DNA of 64,000 nt from Veillonella atypica KON (GTDB lineage Bacteria > Bacillota > Negativicutes > Veillonellales > Veillonellaceae): assembly GCF_002959915.1 (NCBI RefSeq), contig NZ_PPDE01000008.1, positions 434,001 through 498,000 on the forward strand. The letters run 5' to 3'. The notes beneath the pieces were generated by a model, which worked only from the letters and a program-made list of their open reading frames with translations, ran no database searches and was not told the DNA's origin. This document shows, one piece after another, positions 11,300-12,604 of the stretch. Made by a program: the position numbers and the translations under genes. Positions within the stretch are counted from its first letter, which is position 1; the number at the start of each line of letters is the position of its first letter.

Positions 11300-11779
11300 T
11301 CACTCCTTCCGCAATGTCTCTATCATGGATGCATAAAGATTGCGAATTGCATCATTTCTAGATTCATAATCTACATGTTCAATGATGCTGGCAAATGAAT
11401 TATGCATCATTTGAGCCTCGCGCTTTGTAATTTTATTATCTTGTAACAATTGAAATAAAGATTGATCAACATCGCGTAAATCGATTAACCGTTCCACGCG
11501 ATTTAGACCTTCATAGATATGATAGGTTGTCACTGCTGGTACCATATTAGAAGATTCTGGTTGCAACTTACGAATTCTAATATATCCACCTAATCCACGT
11601 CTAGATTCAACATCAAATCCTCGTTCATTAGAAAAACGCGTACTCAATACATAGCTAATCTGAGATGGTGCACAATCTAATTCATCGGCCAACTCATTTC
11701 TCTTTAAAATCAATCTTTCTTGTTCTTCTGTTAATTTATTAAGTATAAATTTTTCTATTTTATCAGCTATAACGCTCAT
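11300..11779 (-). CDS. ctsR: Transcriptional repressor CtsR
   Basis: Heat-shock repressor of the clp genes. 159 residues, typical size. The N-terminal winged helix-turn-helix (ELADELDCAPSQISYVLSTRF) is followed by the glycine-rich wing VESRRGLGGYIRI that reads operator DNA; its arginine is the McsB/heat-sensing region in characterised CtsR. The C-terminal part mediates dimerisation. It is first in the operon and its promoter overlaps several TCAAA motifs, consistent with autoregulation. AGAGGTGTTATT precedes the ATG. Confidence 0.94.
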   Translation of the reverse strand: MSVIADKIEKFILNKLTEEQERLILKRNELADELDCAPSQISYVLSTRFSNERGFDVESRRGLGGYIRIRKLQPESSNMVPAVTTYHIYEGLNRVERLIDLRDVDQSLFQLLQDNKITKREAQMMHNSFASIIEHVDYESRNDAIRNLYASMIETLRKE

Positions 11780-11978: not shown

Positions 11979-12007
11979 TAGACTAATATAAGAATTCAAT
12001 GTATAAT
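11979..12007 (+). promoter_or_regulatory. Candidate promoter of the SpeD-like gene
   Basis: TAGACT (11979-11984), 17 bases, TATAAT (12002-12007). The 12-base repeat AATGTATGTACG occurs at 11951-11962 and again at 12022-12033, flanking the promoter, which is suggestive of regulator binding sites. Confidence 0.6.
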
Positions 12008-12048
12008 ATTAAAGATATAATAATGTATGTACGAAAGAAGGTGCTACA

Positions 12049-12555
12049 ATGGCAGATGCATTAGGTCATCAATTATTACTAGATTTATATTCTTGCAATG
12101 AAGAATCCCTCTCTTCCGCTGCAGCCGTACAAGAAAGTGTAGCTGCTGCATTTGAGTTAGCAGATATTGAATTAGACGAAATTAACTATCAAGTTATGGA
12201 TGATGAAATTGTCGTTCTTGCTATTGCAAAACAATTTCATTTCACATTACATGCGTATCCAGAATTGGGTTATGTAGCAGTTGATTTATTCGCCTTCAAT
12301 CGTACTCTACCACTTACACAATTTATGAAATCCTTACGTCAATCATTTGGATCTGAAAAAGTAAAAGCAACCACTGTCCAACGTGGCGATTTTGGTAACG
12401 AACGCGATATGAAACCGCGTCGCAAAACCAAAATTACAACGCTTGGTCGTGTATTCCGTACACGTATCCAATTAAAACAAACTGGGGGCAAACTCAAAAA
12501 ACAAAGCGCTAAGGTTATTAAATCATTAGCTAAAAAAAGTGGCCTAAAAAAATAA
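12049..12555 (+). CDS. SpeD/AdoMetDC-like protein lacking catalytic Ser and Cys
   Basis: 168 residues. The first 90 match bacterial S-adenosylmethionine decarboxylase (GHQLLLDLYSCNEESL at the N terminus, HFTLHAYPELGYVAVDLF at 64-81). Active SpeD cleaves itself at a Ser to make its pyruvoyl group and uses a His and a Cys; in the Thermotoga enzyme these are Ser63, His68 and Cys83. Here the matching positions are Phe63, His68 and Phe83. It therefore should not self-process or decarboxylate AdoMet. Residues 117-168 form a Lys/Arg-rich extension (more than 15 basic residues) that could contact nucleic acid or acidic surfaces. It stands alone, divergent from ctsR, with ribosome site GAAGGTG 8 bases before ATG and its own terminator. 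Function unknown. Confidence 0.85.
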   Translation: MADALGHQLLLDLYSCNEESLSSAAAVQESVAAAFELADIELDEINYQVMDDEIVVLAIAKQFHFTLHAYPELGYVAVDLFAFNRTLPLTQFMKSLRQSFGSEKVKATTVQRGDFGNERDMKPRRKTKITTLGRVFRTRIQLKQTGGKLKKQSAKVIKSLAKKSGLKK

Positions 12556-12570
12556 CATAAGAAAAATCTA

Positions 12571-12604
12571 AAAGACCTTGCTCAATACGAACAAGGTCTT
12601 TTTA
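12571..12604 (+). terminator. Terminator after the SpeD-like gene
   Basis: AAAGACCTTG and CAAGGTCTTT pair around an 11-base loop (12571-12601), followed by T residues. Confidence 0.85.

Follow-up and report, generated by a model that had tools for sequence, protein, structure and literature searches.

The window, i. e. the whole stretch of 64,000 nucleotides from Veillonella atypica KON that was analysed (contig NZ_PPDE01000008.1, positions 434,001 to 498,000), contains a gene whose product has the fold of the S-adenosylmethionine (AdoMet) decarboxylase SpeD, lacks the pyruvoyl-forming serine and the catalytic cysteine, and ends in a basic tail. The lost catalysis, together with the retention of the protein and its tail nearly throughout the class, suggests that it has a different job today. 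Tentatively, and at slightly less than even probability, we propose a SpeD-fold scaffold with a predicted polyanion-binding tail, RNA being the most likely ligand. The class searched was Negativicutes, presumably the class of Veillonella; this name and that of the order follow from the genus.

The likeness to SpeD lies far above chance and is confirmed as real. The Pfam domain AdoMet_dc covers residues 9-113 (69.2 bits, E 4.5e-19, above the curated cut-off of 25), and residues 4-115 align with SpeD of Thermotoga maritima (1tlu; E 3.8e-9). In this alignment Phe63 stands for Ser63, Phe83 stands for Cys83, and His68 is the same; positions 63, 68 and 83 are those which we take to be catalytic in AdoMet decarboxylase. 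An AlphaFold2 (AF2) model based on 13 sequences had an overall mean predicted local distance difference test score (pLDDT) of 72.9. Its SpeD domain is confident, with averages of 78-94 for the ten-residue blocks over 11-110, and its tail is poorly predicted. The best PDB matches of the model in Foldseek were the SpeDs of T. maritima (E 3.0e-9, TM score 0.75, target) and Aquifex, and chains of the Trypanosoma AdoMet decarboxylase (AdoMetDC) and its prozyme were also among the structural matches. Thus the kinship with AdoMet decarboxylase, the replacement of Ser63 and Cys83 by Phe and the retention of His68, all of which the preliminary description had read from the letters alone, were found again, and the structure prediction for which it had called gave a SpeD fold nearest to that of T. 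maritima.

With class 1b SpeD (T. maritima TM0655 type; TIGR03330, PF02675) the window protein has in common the fold, the domain length, His64, His68, Asp79 and Arg112-Gly113. It differs in having neither the pyruvoyl Ser nor the catalytic Cys, in reaching only 59.5 bits with TIGR03330, the NCBIfam equivalog model for class 1b SpeD, whose cut-off is 75.65, and in its extra basic tail, which was unseen in the 20 SpeDs from outside the class (drawn from the best-scoring rows) that were read as an outgroup control. Judged by its sequence, the protein is catalytically dead, since by the known route Phe63 cannot be turned into a pyruvoyl group.

The tail (57 residues) contains 20 Lys/Arg and 3 Asp/Glu and has an isoelectric point (pI) of 11.9, compared with 4.4 for residues 1-111; the Lys/Arg-rich extension described before is therefore borne out. 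For comparison across the class, a family set of 111 distinct sequences was used, 51 of them from the order of the window and the other 60 from elsewhere in the class. The basic tail, Arg112 and Pro123 are present in all of them, and Asp120 is kept in 104. From Arg112 on, the family members continue for 38-63 residues with a net charge of +6 to +21, whereas the outside SpeDs continue for 7-35 residues with a net charge of -2 to +3. Segment 105-123, which joins the end of the domain to the start of the tail, shows a variation of 1.22 bits as against 1.73 bits for the active-site segment 61-85.

The family profile found a match in 357 of the 380 class genomes, in 228 of the 234 good ones and in 59 of the 61 genomes of the window's order. 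An orthologue (L036) is also carried by Veillonella parvula SKV38. In a phylum-wide draw, 278 of 398 genomes matched. All 19 class matches of the phylum search extend to profile position 139-152 of 153, whereas the non-class rows, among the matches listed, end at 114-129, i. e. before the tail or early in it; the exception (G481) reaches position 143, but only across a stop codon. The tailed SpeD-like gene is under purifying selection: when 13 chosen pairs within Veillonellaceae were compared by simple Nei-Gojobori counting, the ratio of nonsynonymous to synonymous rates (dN/dS) was 0.011-0.114 in 12 pairs and not computable in one, where dS was saturated. The earlier view of a pseudoenzyme retained for some function agrees with the loss of Ser63 and Cys83, a dN/dS far below 1, the near class-wide presence and the conserved tail motif.

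Within the family, position 63 varies widely. Its 110 rows with a letter hold 39 Gly, 31 Ser, 14 Cys, 10 Phe, 10 Ala, 5 Thr and 1 Val; the gap row, L129, has Gly by a separate reading. Ser63, His68 and Cys83 are all intact in 17 tailed members, which are spread over 15 other families of the class (f10, f12, f15, f18, f20, f22, f25-f32, f35). Fourteen further members have Ser63 without Cys83, and in the other 80 (L129 counted by the separate reading) Ser63 is gone. Phe83 is found in 51 of the 51 distinct sequences of the order, including 12 that retain Ser63. Of the features whose conservation had been put up for checking, the tail holds throughout the family and Phe83 throughout the order, whereas Phe63, with 10 of 110 rows, does not. 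Cys63 together with Phe83 was seen in 14 distinct order sequences (L003-L006, L008, L009, L011-L020 in part, L095, L097, L099), and a tailed member from another family of the class (L128) has Thr at both 63 and 83, a further loss.

The SpeDs outside the class keep Ser63, His68 and Cys83 in 20 of 20 cases. Because tailed members with intact residues exist and the outgroups all have Ser and Cys, the likeliest order of events, as far as sequences can tell, is that the tail preceded the catalytic losses and that these losses were recurrent. A tree of 87 rows made without positions 63 and 83 needs a minimum of 10 changes at the first of these sites and 5 at the second. A domain-only tree of 101 rows with 19 of the 20 outgroups gave at least 11 and 5, or 18 and 5 when only losses were allowed. 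Both were quick trees from which near-duplicate rows and L129 were omitted, and the counts of changes between Ser and not-Ser carry no direction. The reverse order, catalytic loss first and tail later, is rejected in view of the tailed homologues that keep all three residues; the preliminary description, which had the tail gained on top of lost catalysis, erred here, as all 111 members are tailed and 17 of them are residue-intact. One SpeD from outside the class (L223) has an active-site segment, AESHISIHTYPE, resembling the one in tailed proteins with an intact Ser, and has no tail; possibly it is close to the source of the tailed family.

A possible interpretation, to which we give a somewhat lower probability than to the scaffold as such, is that at the root of the Negativicutes a SpeD enzyme gained a polyanion-binding tail and so became bifunctional, and that the enzyme half later died in many lineages while a polyamine-independent tail function stayed near-universal. 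If this were true, a class-defining housekeeping protein, e. g. a ribosome or RNA factor, would have been derived from a polyamine enzyme.

The relation to polyamine synthesis can be judged from gene content. The genome of the window (closest named relative by protein identity: V. tobetsuensis, 94%) holds two AdoMet_dc matches, the window gene and a class 1a SpeD of 260 residues on contig C6, plus one SpeE. Hence the search for a second, active SpeD suggested earlier did find an intact-looking one elsewhere in the genome. Two matches, one per kind, were present in 28 of the 28 genomes of the window's family, its own included. In the class, 1a SpeD was detected in 224 of the 380 genomes and in 154 of the 234 good ones. 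Both proteins were found in 214 genomes, the tailed one only in 143, 1a only in 10 and neither in 13; these counts were combined by hand, with G339, G376 and G377 placed by their absence among the matches listed, and a divergent 1a SpeD, or one lost from an incomplete genome, would escape detection. Since 80 good genomes are without 1a and 6 without the tailed protein, the tailed protein must occur without a detected 1a in at least 74 of the good genomes.

In 38 genomes checked for AdoMet_dc, which were chosen mainly for their lack of 1a SpeD, one match was found in 29, two in 7 and none in 2. Of the 29 sole copies, 26 were read (those of G073, G104 and G112 lie outside this set), and Ser63 was present in none (24 Gly, 1 Ala, 1 Val). 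With sole copies lacking Ser63 and no 1a detected, no competent SpeD partner was found in these genomes. SpeE was also undetected in 15 of the 29 single-copy genomes. As the tailed protein is kept without a detected SpeD and often without SpeE, the role for which it is conserved probably lies outside both AdoMet decarboxylation and the activation of a SpeD partner. The other 14 single-copy genomes (e. g. G308, G319, G061) have a SpeE-like gene although no competent SpeD was detected; where the aminopropyl donor comes from in these organisms is puzzling.

A catalytic pocket much of which has drifted, a tail core that is conserved and a protein that is kept where the pathway is missing favour a polyanion-binding scaffold. 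In this proposal the ancestral tailed SpeD would already have had a second, tail-borne activity that outlasted catalysis. The SpeD domain would now be a folded, perhaps dimeric scaffold, and the Lys/Arg-rich tail with its amphipathic end would bind a polyanion, for which RNA or the ribosome is the likeliest candidate. The codon adaptation of the gene lends this weak support. Its value of 0.72 exceeds that of about 76% of the 54 open reading frames (ORFs) in the window (class 1a SpeD: 0.63) and lies inside the spread of the ribosomal-protein stretch, where the reference was all forward-strand ORFs of at least 55 residues, some of them non-ribosomal. Such ribosomal-protein-like codon adaptation fits an abundant protein and proves nothing.

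Several observations weigh against the scaffold. His64, His68, Tyr70 and Asp79 are conserved in the family, so a ligand pocket may survive in many members, and the 17 members that keep Ser63, His68 and Cys83 may still be enzymes in their lineages. The dN of the tail is below that of the domain in 5 of the 13 pairs and above it in 8, and thus, taken in its entirety, the tail does not consistently evolve more slowly than the domain. On the domain-only tree, a single origin of the family has a support value of just 28. The tail is modelled by AF2 at low confidence only, and a Pfam scan of seven tails yielded no family over the cut-off; its sole hit, with an E of 0.11, was to an Hfq-like phage family and fell short of the cut-off. 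There was likewise no Pfam family for the tail of the window protein, which as a whole gave only AdoMet_dc above a cut-off, and no recognised RNA-binding domain appeared in the scans of the seven tails or of the whole protein. Moreover, a basic amphipathic tail suits membrane or protein binding equally well.

One alternative to the polyanion-binding scaffold is a bacterial prozyme, i. e. a dead protein that would pair with class 1a SpeD and activate or regulate it like the trypanosome paralogue. Both proteins occur in this genome and, by the hand count, in 214 class genomes, and the prozyme was met among the structural matches; in trypanosomatids a dead AdoMetDC-fold paralogue stands beside the intact enzyme, and the mechanism is described (PMC5201418). 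That protein, however, has the eukaryotic fold of two fused halves and activates its partner, whereas the tailed protein is also kept in genomes in which a SpeD partner was not detected. With the 143 genomes that have no detected 1a and the 26 sole copies without Ser63, prozyme-type activation is rejected as a general role, and we consider the prozyme explanation unlikely. A prozyme role may exist in a restricted set of lineages such as Veillonella.

About as improbable as the prozyme is a membrane scaffold, in which the cationic amphipathic tail helix would anchor the protein to acidic lipids, perhaps in connection with the polyaminated cell wall of the Negativicutes. The hydrophobic moment was high in the six tail ends tried (share of shuffles reaching it 0.006 to 0.061), and the outer membrane of Negativicutes is anchored to polyamine-modified peptidoglycan (PMC10628300). 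Yet no signal peptide or transmembrane segment was apparent by eye, without a predictor, and the connection with the cell wall is speculative.

Equally doubtful is that the family consists of enzymes and ligand sensors, some members being active decarboxylases of AdoMet, ornithine or arginine and those without Ser binding a small molecule in the old pocket. The 17 residue-intact rows and His68, which is kept in 107 of 111 members, speak for this, as does the report that two SpeD homologues in a genome, or a SpeD without SpeE, marked SpeD-derived ornithine or arginine decarboxylases (PMC10407285). The tailed protein shares this setting with those decarboxylases (SpeDC/SpeDA), but the window protein has Phe63 in place of their self-cleaving serine, which 31 of the 110 family rows retain. 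Neither Gly63 nor Phe63 yields a pyruvoyl group by the known route, and the window protein has Phe at 83 as well; Glu72, found in 20 of 20 outside SpeDs, is present in 38 of 111 family members. The AdoMet or polyamine sensor suggested in the preliminary description has become less likely because positions 55, 63 and 72 vary widely across the tailed family and because the bulky side chains of Phe63 and Phe83 would occupy the places expected for the substrate and the catalytic groups. Its other suggestion, nucleic-acid binding, may still hold.

Finally, a functionless, decaying duplicate of SpeD, to which the intact-looking class 1a SpeD in the same genome might point, is so improbable in view of the dN/dS values and the presence in 228 of 234 good class genomes that it can be regarded as ruled out; of the decay test proposed earlier, the second SpeD was found, but this copy is not decaying.

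Dead AdoMetDC-fold proteins as such are already known, namely the trypanosomatid prozyme (PMC5201418) and one half of the Victivallis vadensis SpeD1-SpeD2 fusion (PMC10407285). The degraded SpeD2 half has likewise lost active-site residues and shows no self-cleavage (PMC10407285), but it is fused to an active SpeD, whereas the window protein stands alone, is tailed and occurs nearly class-wide. The main text of this 2023 survey of SpeD neofunctionalisation has no mention of Veillonell-, Negativicut-, Cys83 or pseudoenzyme (PMC10407285). Among the titles and abstract openings listed from one open-access library, there was no paper on a stand-alone (tailed) bacterial AdoMet decarboxylase pseudoenzyme and, judged by the listing, none with apparently useful transposon data on Veillonella parvula. 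The class 1a SpeD (E. coli type) is homologous to the tailed protein and is the presumed AdoMetDC of the organism, but it keeps the KSH and STCG motifs, which we take to be those of the class 1a active site, and has no such tail in its sequence. The S-adenosylmethionine decarboxylase gene Vpar_0438 is reported to be down 18-fold in coaggregation (PMC6529473); from the locus number alone, this is probably the 1a paralogue.

Annotation based on Pfam would label the tailed protein an AdoMet decarboxylase and thereby assign spermidine synthesis to organisms in which no competent SpeD was found. Negativicutes include common bacteria of the human mouth and gut, and the pseudoenzyme is nearly universal in this class. 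Ranging from members with Ser, His and Cys all intact through those with Ser only to those with none, the family provides a natural series in which the loss of catalysis can be studied while another feature stays.

At the level of the gene, the preliminary description of an intact gene with all its signals stands in part. The ORF list and the translation show an intact frame of 168 codons, and a ribosome-binding-site-like sequence precedes it. The promoter is weak, as promoter-like sites do not exceed their number in shuffles (3 against an expected 5.2). A terminator-like hairpin follows the gene, though it was reported on the reverse strand only.

Features of the tailed SpeD-like gene and its surroundings (positions in the window)
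Feature	Position	Strand	Basis or remark
Coding sequence of the tailed SpeD-like pseudoenzyme (168 residues + stop)	12049..12555	+	ORF and translation; Pfam AdoMet_dc E 4.5e-19
SpeD-fold domain, residues 1-111, acidic (pI 4.4)	12049..12381	+	Pfam, 1tlu alignment, composition, AF2 model, structure matches
Codon 63, Phe replacing the pyruvoyl-forming Ser	12235..12237	+	1tlu alignment; Ser in 31/110 family rows
Codon 68, His kept (107/111 in family)	12250..12252	+	1tlu alignment, family alignment
Codon 83, Phe replacing the catalytic Cys (Phe in 51/51 distinct sequences of the order)	12295..12297	+	
Residues 105-123, most conserved of eight segments; Thr108, Arg112, Pro123 in 111/111	12361..12417	+	
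Basic C-terminal tail, residues 112-168	12382..12552	+	Family alignment, composition; low model confidence
Predicted C-terminal amphipathic helix, residues 148-164	12490..12540	+	pLDDT ~50 (low confidence)
Ribosome-binding-site-like AAAGAAGG	12034..12041	+	Read directly in the sequence
Candidate promoter of the sigma-70 type (10 of 12, no better than chance)	11979..12007	+	
Terminator-like hairpin 3' of the gene, 15 pairs	12570..12602		Inverted repeat on both strands, reported on - strand only
ctsR, divergent neighbour	11300..11779	-	Next to the SpeD-like gene in the window

The divergent neighbour is the gene which we take to be ctsR from its place before mcsA-, mcsB- and clpC-like genes. The SpeD-like gene is divergent from ctsR in 52 of the 52 stretches that hold both, many of them from near-identical or repeated genomes. 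The starts of the two genes are separated by 141-342 bases in most members of the window's genus and in the four genomes read from family f4, and by about 1 to 7.6 kb elsewhere. Among the 197 loci of at least 3.2 kb with the gene, most of them short and many of them repeats of one genome, 52 contain ctsR; 16 long stretches have it in 9 cases and not in 7 (L169, L172, L173, L176, L177, L180, L181). The link to ctsR is thus widespread and not universal. Six scanned loci of other families have genes resembling those of nitronate monooxygenases, flavodiiron proteins or RNA methyltransferases between the SpeD-like gene and ctsR, and the neighbouring genes give no functional clue. No CtsR operator with up to two mismatches to the Bacillus consensus was present within the window.

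A phage, plasmid or defence origin is unsupported. PADLOC and the plasmid search returned none, and a search of viral contigs with the single pattern DFGxxxDMKP matched two stretches, neither of which encodes a relative. PHROGs gave just its general SpeD family and one match at E 0.058. Past the SpeD-like gene and a HAD-type phosphatase, the reverse strand carries at 13348-17491 genes that from their translations are presumably sufU-, sufS-, sufD- and sufB-like, and a T-box leader (115.3 bits) lies at 975-1180, also on the reverse strand.
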